Assembly (NCBI GenBank): GCA_031281155.1
Contig: JAITFT010000207.1
Span: 1 to 34,152, forward strand
Direction: 5' to 3'
DNA length: 34,152 nucleotides
Source of the DNA: Candidatus Fibrimonadaceae bacterium
GTDB lineage: Bacteria; Fibrobacterota; Fibrobacteria; Fibrobacterales; Fibrobacteraceae
The notes below the pieces were generated by a model. It ran no database searches. It saw only the letters and a program-made list of their open reading frames with translations, and was not told the origin of the DNA. Both the position numbers and the translations under genes were made by a program. This document shows positions 2,370 through 26,082 of the stretch, piece after piece. Position 1 is the first letter of the stretch, and the number at the start of each line of letters is the position of its first letter.

Positions 2370-4205
2370 ATGAAACTCGCCCTTGCCCTTTACCCTGTTT
2401 ACGATGTGCATAAAAAAAATGCCCACAGCATTGCCGCAAAGGCTTGGGCAGCAAGGATAATGGGGTTGCTATCGGGGAGGCAGAATTTAAAACTTACCGT
2501 ATTTTTCACTGGGCAAATGCTGGAGGCTTTGAATAAAGAGCATAAAAAAGAAGCAAAACAGTTGAAGAAATTGCTTGCAAGCAGGCAACTGGAGTTTTTG
2601 GGCGGTGCTTACAATGAAGCTGTGCTGCCGTTGTTCCCTGAAAAATTGCAGGAATTGCAATTGCAAAAGCACAGAGAGCTGCTCTCTAATTTTATGGAGC
2701 CATCGGGCTTTTTTTGCTCATCGCACGCTTGGGAAATCGCCCTTATAGAAAGCCTTGAAAAAAGCGGTTTTTTATATGCTCTTATGCCAGATATTTCCGT
2801 TCAAGAAGCCTTGGGTAGAAAGTCTGCGGTGGCGGGTTGGTTTGCCGCAGAATACGGCGGCTCTTTTATGCGAATATTAACCTATTCTCAAAACTTATCT
2901 TTTGTTTGCCAAAATTCAAAAAGAGCAGATATAGTAAATTCGCTGAAAAATGTCAAAAGCTCGAATGGCGTGAATTGCATTCTCTTGAGCATAAATTTAG
3001 ATGAAGCCGTGTCTAACAACGAGTGGTTGCAGGCCGTGGATACGGCAAAAGCAGAGGGTTTAGATATAGAGCATTGCTTGCTTTGCCAAATAATTGAGCA
3101 AAAAGCAACGGGCAAGGTGAATTTAATCAGTTACTCGCTATCTGCGCCCAGCTCTCGCGATATTCTTCTGCGAATGCCTGAGATAAATGTTTTGCATAAG
3201 AGAATTTTGAATGTATATTCCAAAGCCTGCTTGTTAAGTGACTCCGAAACAAAAGAAGAGGTTTTTGAGAGTTTGCTAGAGGCAATGCAGCAGAGCTATT
3301 TCAAAAACACAGCAGATGGAATGCTGCGCGATTCCGTTAGGTTTTACGCAAATCGCTCGGTACTGGAAGCGGAAAAAATTCTGCGAGATTTCGATGCACA
3401 AGAAGGAATTCGCTTTGCGAGAGCGAATTTTTTATTAGATGGAAACCAACAATTAAACTTTAGCAACCCGCATTTAGAATGCTTAATTGAACCTGCTTTT
3501 GGCGGCTATATCCGCTCGCTCTCATACAGGCCCTCTCTCTCGGAACTTGCCTGCTCCATGCGCGACGATGGCGAAGTTTCACCGCTTTTTCTGGAGCATA
3601 TTTGCCCCGTTGAATTTGAAAATATAGCCCAAAGAAATTTATGGATTAGCGATAGGCTAGGCGCATTGCAAAATCCCTACGAAAGCTCCATTAAAAAGCA
3701 AGAGGATAAAATTCAGGTATTAATGGAGAGCGAGCAAAATATATCATATTTGGGCAAAGACTATTCCTTTAAAGCAGAAAAGGTTTTTAGCATAAAAAAC
3801 AGCGAAGCAGATATGACAGCAAGCATTTCCATAACGAATGCTTCTTTCAATGCGCTCAAAGGAGAATTCGCAACGGAGCTTTGCCTAGGTTTTAGAAACG
3901 ATGACCGCGGGCAAACACTTAAAATCGAGGGCAAAAAAATAAAGCTCAAACAAGGCGATGGTTTTTACACCAATGTAAAAAAAATCAATTTTAAAGACAG
4001 GTTTTTGGGCATAGGCGCAGATATTGAAATGAGCAAAAGCGCAAATATTTTATGCGTACCCATTTTAGGGCTTGGCTCACTCGCCACTCCAGACACAGTG
4101 CAAGGGCTTAGGCTCGCCATTTTCCGCAAGGTAAATTTAAAAGGGCAAGAATCTGAAACCTTCCACTTGCGTATTCGCTTGAACGGAGGAGGCTTTTTCT
4201 CATGA
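2370..4205 (+). CDS. GH57/4-alpha-glucanotransferase homologue, probably catalytically inactive
   Basis: A 611-residue protein aligning by eye with the archaeal-type GH57 4-alpha-glucanotransferase family over its whole length. LEFLGGAYNEAVLPLFP (residues 75-90) matches the family's GGxYEPxxxxxP block, LPEINVLHKRILNVYSKA-like sequence around 269-286 matches its PExNxxHKRML block, and LECLIEPAFGG through LSYRP (369-388) matches the DUF1926 beta-sandwich. However, the family nucleophile Glu in TERVW is replaced by Ser118 in SSHAW. The acid/base Asp region (HDDGEKFG) reads SINLDEAV near 207-214, and the N-terminal HxHQP motif is YPVY. It may therefore bind glucan without cleaving it. It overlaps the next gene by 4 bp (ATGA), so the two are probably translationally coupled. 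Confidence 0.72.
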   Translation: MKLALALYPVYDVHKKNAHSIAAKAWAARIMGLLSGRQNLKLTVFFTGQMLEALNKEHKKEAKQLKKLLASRQLEFLGGAYNEAVLPLFPEKLQELQLQKHRELLSNFMEPSGFFCSSHAWEIALIESLEKSGFLYALMPDISVQEALGRKSAVAGWFAAEYGGSFMRILTYSQNLSFVCQNSKRADIVNSLKNVKSSNGVNCILLSINLDEAVSNNEWLQAVDTAKAEGLDIEHCLLCQIIEQKATGKVNLISYSLSAPSSRDILLRMPEINVLHKRILNVYSKACLLSDSETKEEVFESLLEAMQQSYFKNTADGMLRDSVRFYANRSVLEAEKILRDFDAQEGIRFARANFLLDGNQQLNFSNPHLECLIEPAFGGYIRSLSYRPSLSELACSMRDDGEVSPLFLEHICPVEFENIAQRNLWISDRLGALQNPYESSIKKQEDKIQVLMESEQNISYLGKDYSFKAEKVFSIKNSEADMTASISITNASFNALKGEFATELCLGFRNDDRGQTLKIEGKKIKLKQGDGFYTNVKKINFKDRFLGIGADIEMSKSANILCVPILGLGSLATPDTVQGLRLAIFRKVNLKGQESETFHLRIRLNGGGFFS

Positions 4206-4870
4206 GCGAAAAAATTGACTTTGCCATGGAAATTTCAAAGAACGAAACTTTGATTGAGCTTAAGGGGCTTTTAAGAGAAGAGCATTTGCCAGCCGTGCGC
4301 AAGTTGTTGTTTTCTCCGATTGATGGTCTTAATAAAATTTACTTTGTGGATATTGAGCAGGCTAAATTTAGGGATAAAAATTATTTAAATATGTTTTTGG
4401 ATCTTTTGAATTTTGTTAAGGGAAAGGGCACAGAGTTGGTGATTATTTTCCACAACGAAGAGTGCCGAGATTTTTTCAGTCAATTTTTCCATGTATTTAA
4501 AATATACGATTCAAGGGATTCCTACAGAAAAGATTCCGGTTTTTGGGAAAAGCTGAAAGCAACCGGCATAAGTTACCAAAGAAGCACCGGGCTAAGGCTT
4601 GCGCCGGGCATCACCATAGTCTTCCTCTTTTTGTTCGCAGGCTGGATTTTAACGCTATTCTCCATAATATCCAGCCAAGACAAAGATATTCGCGAACGCG
4701 AAAAAAGCCTAAAAGAATTGCAAATCAACTACATGCGCTCAATTCAGGCTTTGGAGCAATTAAAAAATTCCGTTGCTCCGCTTAAAAGCATGGGTTTTGA
4801 TATAGACACTTCCGGAAACTTACCGCTTGGCGCTATAAGCGATTGGCAGGAGTTTTTGCTAAATCCCTAA
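4202..4870 (+). CDS. STAS-like protein with a transmembrane anchor and coiled coil
   Basis: A 222-residue protein. Residues 1-105 alternate strands and helices like a STAS domain (anti-sigma antagonist/MlaB type): IELKGLLREEHLPAV, then IYFVDIEQAKFRDKNYLNMF, then ELVIIFHNEECRDFF. I see no DSSGL-type phosphorylatable serine; the corresponding position reads EQAKF, so a classic partner-switching role is doubtful. A transmembrane segment spans about 135-157, followed by a charged coiled coil at 160-190 and a short C-terminal tail. It is coupled to the GH57-like gene by a 4-bp overlap, so the two products probably work together. Its last 38 bp overlap the 3' end of purN on the other strand. Confidence 0.6.
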   Translation: MSEKIDFAMEISKNETLIELKGLLREEHLPAVRKLLFSPIDGLNKIYFVDIEQAKFRDKNYLNMFLDLLNFVKGKGTELVIIFHNEECRDFFSQFFHVFKIYDSRDSYRKDSGFWEKLKATGISYQRSTGLRLAPGITIVFLFLFAGWILTLFSIISSQDKDIREREKSLKELQINYMRSIQALEQLKNSVAPLKSMGFDIDTSGNLPLGAISDWQEFLLNP

Positions 4871-5396
4871 TTACCTGCCAGTAAGTGTTATGCTCCTCTC
4901 GCAAAACACGCTCGGCTAAACTTTCCGGCGTATCGCTGGGCAGAACAGGCACTGCGGCTTGGGCTATAATGCGGCCAGCATCGTAATCTTTGTTAACGAA
5001 ATGCACGGTTAGGCCCGTAATTTTCACCCCTGCTTCAATTACCTTTTTATGAACGTGCATGCCATAACAGCCTTTGCCGCCAAAGGCGGGCAAGAGCGAT
5101 GGATGGATGTTTATTATTTTGTTTTCAAAATGCTCAAGAACGCTTTCAGAAATTTTTCGCATATAGCCTGACATAACAACCAAATCTGGATTTTCACTCT
5201 GTAGAACCGAAAGCAAATTATCGCCTTCAACCAAGCGAACAGGCACGCTGTACTTATTTGCCACATCTATAGCCTTGCTACCGGCTGGCGTTATAAGGCT
5301 TATGCACTGAGCAACGAGCTCTTTTGAGGCTATGCGTTGCATAATCGCCTCAAAGTTGCTGCCTCTCCCTGCGGAGAGCATTGAGAATTTAAGCAT
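4833..5396 (-). CDS. purN: Phosphoribosylglycinamide formyltransferase
   Basis: PurN transfers a formyl group from 10-formyltetrahydrofolate to GAR, the third step of purine synthesis. This 187-residue protein is of normal length. It shows the phosphate-binding SAGRGSNFEAI (residues 8-18), NIHPSLLPAFGG with Asn96 and His98, and VHFVNKDYDAGRIIAQ with Asp139, the usual catalytic triad positions. The promoter element TTTTTCTACCTT ends 7 nt before the ATG and there is no Shine-Dalgarno, so the mRNA is probably leaderless. It is divergent from the flippase gene and convergent, with a 38-bp overlap, with the STAS-like gene. Confidence 0.93.
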   Translation of the reverse strand: MLKFSMLSAGRGSNFEAIMQRIASKELVAQCISLITPAGSKAIDVANKYSVPVRLVEGDNLLSVLQSENPDLVVMSGYMRKISESVLEHFENKIINIHPSLLPAFGGKGCYGMHVHKKVIEAGVKITGLTVHFVNKDYDAGRIIAQAAVPVLPSDTPESLAERVLREEHNTYWQVIRDLAKTPANRL

Positions 5397-8709: not shown

Positions 8710-9588
8710 TTACGACAGCAGCCCAAGTACGCTCTGCGGTAGCATATTTGCTTGAGCCAACATACTAGTCGCGCTCTGTACCATAATCTGGTTTCGAGTG
8801 AACTTGGTTGTTTCAAGTGCGAAGTTAGTGTCGCGTATGCGGCTTTCAGCGTCTTGAGTATTGAACTCAAGGTTAGCAATGTTATTAATCGTAAATTCCA
8901 AACGATTAATATACACACCAATGCCAGCACGAACACCGCTTATACTCTTGATTTGAGATTCAAGAGAAGCAATGGCATTATTGAAAGTAGCCTGGTTAAC
9001 ATTAGCCATATTGGTAGTATTTATTGAGAAACCGCTGATATGCACATTATAGGAAACCTTAATGGCATTACCAACACCCGTCTGACGTTCATCACCTCTC
9101 ACAGAATTAGGACCTATATGCAAGGTACCAATTTGCGCTGTGTTAATTACGCCATCTCCTGTGCCGAAGCCAAAGCTTGCTAGCATATTTATCGTGTTGT
9201 AGTCGGTTGTGTCTCTTATTCTGTTGATTTCTTTGCCAAGCTGATTGATTTCGTCGGCGATGTATTTGCGTTCTGTGCTTGTTAAAGTATCGTTCGCGCC
9301 CTGAACTGCTAGCTCGCGCTGGCGTTGCAGGATATTCGAGATTTCGGACAAGCCACCTTCAGCAATCTGCAAAGCGGCGATGCCGTCTTGAGCGTTCTGT
9401 TTGGCTTTTCCTAAACCGCGAATTTGACCTCTCATCTGTTCAGACATAGCCAAACCTGCCGCGTCGTCTTGGGCGCGATTGATTCTTAAGCCTGTTGAGA
9501 GTTTTTCTAGTGATTTGCTCATTGCACTATTGTTTGAGTACAGAGCGTGCTGGGTCACCATGGCCCGGACGTTGTTGTTGATGATCAT
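8710..9588 (-). CDS. Flagellin
   Basis: A 292-residue filament subunit. The N-terminal D0/D1 region (MIINNNVRAMVTQHAL through ISNILQRQRELAVQGAND) and C-terminal D1/D0 region (QDAESRIRDTNFALETTKFTR through MLPQSVLGLL) are highly typical of secreted flagellins. The central variable part (about 140-215) is short, so the filament surface domain is small. GGAGGT lies 8 nt before the ATG, a strong ribosome-binding site. Expression is probably driven by the sigma-28-type promoter at 9703-9730, leaving a leader of about 105 nt that contains a stable hairpin. It is monocistronic, with a terminator downstream. Gene naming (fliC/hag/flaA) is left open. Confidence 0.97.
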   Translation of the reverse strand: MIINNNVRAMVTQHALYSNNSAMSKSLEKLSTGLRINRAQDDAAGLAMSEQMRGQIRGLGKAKQNAQDGIAALQIAEGGLSEISNILQRQRELAVQGANDTLTSTERKYIADEINQLGKEINRIRDTTDYNTINMLASFGFGTGDGVINTAQIGTLHIGPNSVRGDERQTGVGNAIKVSYNVHISGFSINTTNMANVNQATFNNAIASLESQIKSISGVRAGIGVYINRLEFTINNIANLEFNTQDAESRIRDTNFALETTKFTRNQIMVQSATSMLAQANMLPQSVLGLLS

Positions 9589-24291: not shown

Positions 24292-26082
24292 ATGACCGTT
24301 AAATATACCAGCGTGGCACTACTAGCTTGCGTATTATGTCAGTTGTCATCAGCCAGCCCCATTTACCCGCAGGCTACGCCGCAATTGCCAACTGCCATCA
24401 GCTTTGCAGGAACGAGAGAATTGGCAAGCGGGAACGCAGATGCCGCATTGATTGCGATTAAGGCAGATTCACCGTGGGCAGATTCGCAGCTTTGGCTCTA
24501 CAAGTTTGGAGTAATAAACGCCCGTTTGGGCAATACCGCCGAGGCTGTTGAAGCACTTAACACTGTCAGCAGCACCTGCCAAACCCTAAGGCCGCTTGCC
24601 ATGGAGCAAATTGGCGATATAGCTGTTGAGCAGAAGGATTTTCCTCAGGCAATGACTTCTTACAGTTCGGTTCTCGGCGTTGCCGAGTTGCCGGAACAGT
24701 ATCGGCACGAGTTGTTCCGCAAAATTAAATCTGTTATCGGCAATGGCATTGCGTTGCCGCCGAACGCTTCTTGGATTGATGAGTACCATCAGTGGGAGCA
24801 GGAGCAGCAACAGGCACTCACTGCAACGAAGCCTGAAACTGTTTGCGATTCACTCTGTCGAGTGCAGAATACTTTGTGGTCGCGTGCGTGGAATTTGGAG
24901 ATGGCCAATAATTTCAAGGCAGCGATTACAAATTACAGGAGCGTTTTTAACATAAGCGGCAGGCGCACAGAAGAGGCGCACATTCGCCATGCGCTGTGCT
25001 TTTATAAACTCGGTAAATATGATAGCGTTATAGTCCATATCAATACATTCAAGCAGGCGTTTCCGGGCTCAACTTTTTTCTGGGCGGCTATGTTCTGGCA
25101 AGGCAAGGCATACGCTGCGCAAGGCAATACGGAAGAAGCGCACAAGGTTTGGAATCAGATTGCGCGTCTCAACCCATTCGACTATCATGCCCACCGCGCA
25201 ATGCAGCTAATGGGCATGGCCGATAAGGGCACAGGCAAGTACCACGCTGCGCCACCAAATGTGAAGCCTATATCGGAGAACGCGGTGCGGGAATGGCTCG
25301 ACTCCGTGCCACCACCATTGTCAACGCCGCGAAAAGATTTTGCAAAAGCCGACAGCGTTGCCCTGCGGCGCGGTGCGGCTCTGCTATCGGTGGCACAAGC
25401 GAACACCGCCGTATTCTTTCTCGACGATTATCAGAACAACTACCCAGGCAATCTGCTACTGCAGTACGATCTTGCCAGCTCCTATGCAATTGCCGGCAGT
25501 ATCGGGCGAGCCTTTAATGTTGGCCGCCGTTTGGCGTGGCGCATTCCAACAACGCATCGCGAGAATATACCCTTGCAGGTACAGTCTGTGATATACCCGC
25601 CGTTCTATGCGGCAACAATTAGCAAGTACGCAAAGCGTTTCAATGTTGATCCGCTTTTTGTAAGCGCAGTGATGCGCCAGGAGAGCATCTTCGATTCGAG
25701 CCTCGTTTCCATCGCTGGTGCCATCGGACTGATGCAGGTAATGCCAGCCACGGGCAGGAAAATCGCTGCGGAGCTAAAAGAGAAAAACTTTGCGACAGAT
25801 TCCCTGTTCAATACCGATTTAAGTATTCGCTACGGCGTTTATTATCTGCGCAAACGAATGATTCAATTCAACGGCGACTTTGTGCTGGCTCTATGCGCCT
25901 ACAACGCCGGTGCCAACAACGCTATTAAGTGGCGCGACCGAAACCGCAATGTAGATTACGATATTTTCGCCGAAAACATTGCTTTTTTAGAAACGCGCGG
26001 ATACGTCAAAAGGGTTTTAGGAAATTATTGGACATATCAGCGGCTTGTGTCCACGCCTGGGTATGAATATAAGGGGGAGTGA
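24292..26082 (+). CDS. Slt-type lytic transglycosylase with TPR-like repeats
   Basis: A 596-residue periplasmic enzyme that cleaves peptidoglycan to give 1,6-anhydro-muropeptides. A signal peptide spans about residues 1-22. A helical solenoid with TPR-like units fills about 40-420 (for example AEAVEALNTVSSTCQTL, AYAAQGNTEEAHKVWNQI). The C-terminal SLT domain follows, with MRQESIFD containing catalytic Glu464, then GAIGLMQVMPATG and ALCAYNAGANNAIKW. The order matches Slt70. It appears richer in G+C than its neighbours. It is probably leaderless, with the ATG 7 nt after the promoter hexamer. Confidence 0.93.
   Translation: MTVKYTSVALLACVLCQLSSASPIYPQATPQLPTAISFAGTRELASGNADAALIAIKADSPWADSQLWLYKFGVINARLGNTAEAVEALNTVSSTCQTLRPLAMEQIGDIAVEQKDFPQAMTSYSSVLGVAELPEQYRHELFRKIKSVIGNGIALPPNASWIDEYHQWEQEQQQALTATKPETVCDSLCRVQNTLWSRAWNLEMANNFKAAITNYRSVFNISGRRTEEAHIRHALCFYKLGKYDSVIVHINTFKQAFPGSTFFWAAMFWQGKAYAAQGNTEEAHKVWNQIARLNPFDYHAHRAMQLMGMADKGTGKYHAAPPNVKPISENAVREWLDSVPPPLSTPRKDFAKADSVALRRGAALLSVAQANTAVFFLDDYQNNYPGNLLLQYDLASSYAIAGSIGRAFNVGRRLAWRIPTTHRENIPLQVQSVIYPPFYAATISKYAKRFNVDPLFVSAVMRQESIFDSSLVSIAGAIGLMQVMPATGRKIAAELKEKNFATDSLFNTDLSIRYGVYYLRKRMIQFNGDFVLALCAYNAGANNAIKWRDRNRNVDYDIFAENIAFLETRGYVKRVLGNYWTYQRLVSTPGYEYKGE

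Follow-up and report, generated by a model that had tools for sequence, protein, structure and literature searches.

A GH57-derived pseudoenzyme, a STAS-domain membrane protein and a lytic transglycosylase as a conserved gene set of Fibrobacterota with a possible role in cell-wall control

What does a protein built like a 4-alpha-glucanotransferase do once its catalytic residues are gone, when its gene overlaps that of a STAS-domain membrane protein? The question is raised by a 34,152-nucleotide stretch of DNA (the window, i.e. the whole stretch that was analyzed), which is contig C147 in a genome of 2.57 Mb and 219 contigs from the phylum Fibrobacterota. Both open reading frames, with their coordinates and ATGA overlap, were confirmed as they had been described in an earlier note, and the features of the locus are as follows.

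2370 to 4205, plus strand: GH57 pseudoenzyme, 611 aa (open reading frame, Pfam, AlphaFold, structure match, dN/dS)
2478 to 2960, plus strand: GH57 catalytic-barrel match, aa 37-197, PF03065 (Pfam)
2721 to 2723, plus strand: codon for Ser118, at the position of the GH57 nucleophile Glu, E123 of the Thermococcus litoralis enzyme TLGT (profile alignment)
3585 to 4064, plus strand: C-terminal beta-sandwich, aa 406-565, PF09095 AmyA-gluTrfs_C (Pfam)
4185 to 4192, plus strand: Shine-Dalgarno-like GGAGGAGG within the 3' end of the GH57 gene, 9 nt before the STAS start (sequence)
4202 to 4205, plus strand: ATGA stop/start overlap of the GH57 and STAS genes, 4 nt (open reading frames, sequence)
4202 to 4870, plus strand: membrane protein with STAS domain, transmembrane helix and coiled coil, 222 aa (open reading frame, profile matches, model)
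4214 to 4519, plus strand: STAS domain, aa 5-106, predicted cytoplasmic (profile, model)
4613 to 4669, plus strand: transmembrane helix, aa 138-156, N-in/C-out (hydropathy; topology from the positive-inside rule)
4676 to 4789, plus strand: predicted periplasmic coiled coil, aa 159-196 (model helix, heptad test)

Lying inside the end of the GH57 gene, GGAGGAGG reads as a strong putative ribosome-binding motif for the STAS gene. The 41-bp gap upstream of the GH57 start (2370), bounded on its other side by a divergent aldo/keto reductase gene (ATG at 2328, minus strand), is filled by a perfect 39-bp palindrome (19+1+19; 2329-2367), of which no other mismatch-free copy was found in the genome; an inverted repeat was also sought upstream of six same-genus GH57 orthologues, and none was found. 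Either an operator serving both genes or an artefact of an assembly junction could account for the palindrome. At the other end of the pair, a convergent purN-like gene (4833-5396, minus strand) overlaps the final 38 bases of the STAS gene (4833-4870).

The GH57 protein matches PF03065 (E = 1.1e-13) and PF09095 (E = 1.6e-8), each above the Pfam cut-off, and the closest PDB structure to its AlphaFold model (pLDDT 88.5) is the 4-alpha-glucanotransferase TLGT (1K1W/1K1X), which it resembles over the whole chain, C-terminal sandwich included (TM 0.80/0.77, E = 3e-35). The fold assigned in the earlier note is thus upheld, as is the presence of the beta-sandwich, the Pfam identity of which is AmyA-gluTrfs_C rather than the DUF1926 named there. 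Unlike TLGT, the window protein lacks the catalytic apparatus, as judged by profile alignment and fold match, not by coordinate superposition. The TLGT nucleophile, E123 of CSR-3, aligns with Ser118, and in the 45 GH57 proteins belonging to this gene set (hereafter module GH57s) the position is held by Ser (24), Phe (17), Gly (2), Pro (1) or Tyr (1), and by Glu in none. The HxH of CSR-1 reads Y/V in the window protein; the CSR-4 (HDDGEKFG) loop, which bears the acid/base D214 in TLGT, is shortened in module GH57s and holds no conserved Asp; and CSR-5 (YWHGVFGG) is missing from the window protein. Of the hallmarks of an active 4-alpha-glucanotransferase, the barrel and the AmyA-gluTrfs_C domain are therefore present, whereas nucleophile, acid/base residue, CSR-1 and CSR-5 are not, in agreement with the losses of the nucleophile, the acid/base region and HxH that had been claimed from the window alone.

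Families and genera are referred to here by working codes (f1, g1, etc.), of which we infer f1 to be Fibrobacteraceae and g1 a flagellated, Fibromonas-like genus. Among module GH57s, HxH survives only in family f4, whose members (L061, L062) combine it with a WLPGFVWDP variant of CSR-3 and look, from their sequences, as if they were partway through active-site loss. Two unpaired GH57s of family f3 retain all motifs (E, D, HxH and YWHG). The genome of the window has one other GH57 match (G000:C135:13724-14590; L031), in an open reading frame of ~825 codons that keeps the GH57-like motifs HGHFYQP and GMWLAETG, so that an active GH57 is probably still present in the organism.

All 45 module GH57s carry an acidic residue (D/E) at the position of TLGT E79 and a Trp at that of W126, and a WE motif, i.e. 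a Glu after an invariant Trp, is nearly invariant. Such residues, together with a low dN/dS, could point to a re-tooled enzyme that acts on a cell-wall-derived or other glycan by means of, e.g., the E79-position acid and the Glu of the WE motif. These residues are, however, common to canonical GH57s and so do not indicate a replacement catalytic pair, and with the nucleophile absent in 45/45, the acid/base loop shortened and both HxH and YWHG lost, we regard re-tooling as very unlikely. An alternative Glu/Asp pair in the active site, which the earlier note had named as grounds for giving up the pseudoenzyme reading, was sought in the profile alignment and none was evident; the E79-position acid may nonetheless be functional and, with the W126 Trp also kept, the protein may still bind a ligand or have some residual chemistry. 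Values of dN/dS of 0.05-0.18 in six GH57 orthologue pairs indicate purifying selection and show that the gene is not in decay.

A GH57 pseudoenzyme alone is not new, as a '4AGT-like' group of 63 bacterial proteins of ~623 aa, relatives of 4-alpha-glucanotransferases without catalytic residues, has already been described (PMC6037648). The window protein has in common with this group its fold, length, bacterial origin and loss of catalytic residues, and very probably belongs to the class, as judged by the published description of that group. The earlier study classifies sequences, describes no partner genes, membrane protein or transglycosylase, and makes no mention of Fibrobacter in its main text. 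In Fibrobacter succinogenes S85, the GH57 gene Fisuc_0668 is reported to show high, stable expression (PMC6204037) and the GH57 FSU_1169 is listed in an envelope proteome study (PMC6851124); either may or may not be the module gene.

The STAS protein of the window is by itself sub-threshold (TIGR00377, E = 6e-5). PF01740 is matched by 20 of 29 STAS orthologues, the STAS family profile finds SpoIIAA (4e-9), and the predicted model matches SpoIIAA/RsbV, with MlaB structures among its weaker structural matches. The heptad signal of the coiled coil exceeds that of all 2000 shuffles, the model contains a continuous helix from 135 to 196, and the positive residues ahead of the transmembrane helix lead us to predict a cytoplasmic STAS domain and a periplasmic coiled coil. 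Fold match, hydropathy and heptad test together bear out the STAS-like membrane partner proposed from the window. Unlike SpoIIAA/RsbV, it has a transmembrane helix and coiled coil fused to the STAS fold, and the phosphorylatable Ser of anti-sigma antagonists is not conserved: Ser58 of SpoIIAA corresponds to Asn60 in the window protein, so that the claimed loss of this residue stands here, but it is not absolute in the family, where the position is varied, rarely Ser, and one deep orthologue has Ser. No cognate kinase of the RsbW/SpoIIAB type was recognized among the neighbor genes examined. The GH57 protein itself is predicted to be cytoplasmic, since neither a signal peptide nor a transmembrane helix was apparent in a scan of its sequence.

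Whether the two genes are neighbors in relatives had been set beforehand as a check, and the pair proved to be adjacent and on the same strand in 72/72 other genomes checked in which both genes lay on the contig examined, the 4-nt overlap being the commonest junction state across the phylum and the two genes lying 329 bp apart in one genome (G021, L045). Adjacency and purifying selection thus support the functional pair that had been proposed. In relatives outside the genus of the window, a third gene comes after the STAS gene, and in f1 the two usually overlap by ~11 nt. The product of this third gene combines an SLT domain (PF01464, E = 4e-24) with a coiled coil and a short membrane helix at the N terminus, and the catalytic Glu of the ES motif (aligned with QES of Slt) is invariant, as befits an SLT (GH23) lytic transglycosylase. 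The full triple is found in about 63 other genomes, in the order GH57-STAS-SLT and mostly overlapping, in f1 (outside the genus of the window), f2, f4, f9, f10, f12, f13 and f14. The three-gene operon is therefore the norm of the phylum and the bare pair is limited to the genus of the window, in which the SLT gene has moved to a separate locus but is kept, its orthologue lying on a different contig in 12/12 genomes (G000:C121:5123-5797 in that of the window). A second SLT-domain protein encoded in the window (25612-25947, within an open reading frame at 24292-26082) is not an orthologue of the module SLT.

Presence of the STAS and SLT genes was scored at E < 1e-30 for each in 168 genomes of the phylum: both were found in 144, SLT only in 1 (a genome 73% complete), STAS only in 0 and neither in 23, counts that are phylogenetically non-independent and that rest on two or more contrasts between families in joint presence or absence. 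The lineages without the module are f3 and f5, both of the window's class, together with f6, f7, f8 and f11. The best indication that GH57, STAS and SLT act jointly, and are not just neighbors, is that the SLT gene is kept, though unlinked, in the genus of the window. GH57, STAS and SLT are an ancient three-gene set of Fibrobacterota; in one scan of 84,980 genomes, which is blind to f1-type or divergent sequences, the deep-family GH57 motifs P[PSA]FSNWEP and GYTEPF were matched in Fibrobacterota only, including Chitinispirillales, Chitinivibrionales and Fibrobacter.

Near the old active site, the GH57s of the deep families (f9, f10, f12, f13 and f14) carry almost invariant PYKN, GYTEP and FSNWEP motifs, as they might if selection acted on a binding pocket. 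The window's own family, f1, has a fast-evolving GH57 with degraded pocket motifs, a pattern that fits a scaffold as much as a sensor. Five STAS orthologues also give weak matches, below the Pfam cut-off, to the division coiled-coil family DivIC, and the likeness of their membrane segment hints at a link to division, short of establishing one. Both observations would suit a GH57 protein that binds no ligand and serves as a docking platform, tying STAS and SLT to, e.g., the divisome or the elongasome. The invariant residues that the deep families concentrate at the old active site go beyond the needs of a docking platform, though, and we consider this reading unlikely.

The conserved third gene also bears on the role proposed in the earlier note, that of a two-protein sensor of glucan or glycogen, in which the dead GH57 would bind an alpha-glucan and signal through a STAS domain of the anti-sigma-antagonist type. 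The 4-alpha-glucanotransferase fold, the SpoIIAA/RsbV-like STAS fold, and the E79-position acid and pocket Trp (W126) present in all 45 proteins are what such a sensor would have, and alpha-glucan binding by the pseudoenzyme is possible. The constant third partner, however, is a lytic transglycosylase, which acts on peptidoglycan, the phosphorylatable Ser is unconserved, and the distribution of glycogen synthase (GlgA) is discordant: f5 and f7 have it above the curated cut-off and lack the module, while f2 has the module with GlgA-profile matches that are only partial. As full-length glycogen synthase matches fail to track the module, glycogen sensing was rejected, and a two-protein glucan sensor in general appears distinctly improbable to us.

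Most f1 operons extend beyond the SLT gene to genes for a TolC-family outer-membrane protein, MlaC, an uncharacterized membrane protein and a pseudouridine synthase (e.g. L040:3468-5423), and the TolC-MlaC pairing at these loci is of interest in its own right. With TolC-family (PF02321) and MlaC (PF05494) genes continuing the operon in most of f1, and MlaB among the structures resembling the STAS model, the STAS protein might be thought to play an MlaB-like role in envelope lipid transport. MlaB consists of one soluble domain and is bound to MlaF, which counts against such a role, and the TolC and MlaC genes are missing from the operon in f2, f4, f9, f10 and f12-f14, as they are from the SLT locus in the genus of the window. 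The Mla link was set aside since these neighbors are an f1-only extension, and we see hardly any likelihood of a lipid-transport function. A link to flagella was set aside as well: a flagellin gene lies in the window at 8710-9588, ~4 kb downstream of the pair, and flagellin divergently adjoins the module GH57 in two Chitinispirillales genomes (L064:2368-3180; L067:9258-10070), but flagellin is not near the module in most f1 loci, and Fibrobacteraceae are reported to be without flagella (PMC4704652).

Of the known systems, the bactofilin-LmdC module (PMC10945521) offers the closest analogy in function: there, a cytoplasmic protein is genetically linked to a periplasmic wall hydrolase and positions it. 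That module consists of a bactofilin filament and an M23 endopeptidase, whereas the set described here comprises a GH57 pseudoenzyme, a STAS bridge and an SLT protein, and no bactofilin, M23 peptidase or filament-forming protein was seen in the conserved module in the neighborhoods examined across families. OpgH and UgtP (PMC3723540) are likewise relatives of carbohydrate enzymes that couple metabolic state to growth and division, but both are glucosyltransferases acting on division, and neither has a wall-hydrolase partner in a shared operon. A full-text search found no literature joining GH57, a STAS domain and a lytic transglycosylase, and for STAS domain and lytic transglycosylase together it returned only an ncRNA-discovery paper. 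GH57s without catalytic residues are thus known as a class, whereas the literature searched held no description of the three-gene module.

Taken together, we give about an even chance to the reading that the three proteins form a module by which the cytoplasm controls a cell-wall hydrolase in the periplasm. The cytoplasmic GH57 pseudoenzyme would bind a ligand or partner through its barrel, probably through the remodeled pocket of the former active site, and dock onto the STAS domain on the cytoplasmic side. The STAS protein is predicted to span the inner membrane by a single helix, and its coiled coil on the periplasmic side may pair with a similar one in the membrane-anchored SLT protein; the two proteins are built alike, each with a coiled coil after a lone helix on the N-terminal side, the heptad signal of SLT being weak (p about 0.03). 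The resulting complex could then localize or gate peptidoglycan cleavage in response to the state of the cytoplasm, with an effect on the transglycosylase that might be activating, inhibiting or positioning. We put forward more tentatively, as rather less likely than not, the fuller picture of a phylum-specific, membrane-spanning machine of three proteins, in which a dead glucan-processing enzyme is the cytoplasmic sensor for the SLT protein and the STAS-coiled-coil protein is the bridge between them.

Lytic transglycosylases need restraint if cell lysis is to be avoided and, to our knowledge, the control of most of them is poorly known. If the proposed control module is real, a dead carbohydrate enzyme, a STAS bridge and an SLT protein would together make up a new and directly testable control route for these enzymes, and an undescribed path by which an intracellular metabolite or glycan acts on the cutting of peptidoglycan outside the cell. 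Part of the GH57 class that lacks catalytic residues would gain a function as well. Such proteins are annotated as alpha-amylases, e.g. in CAZyme counts of rumen Fibrobacter, and should be left out of counts of starch- or glycogen-degrading enzymes.
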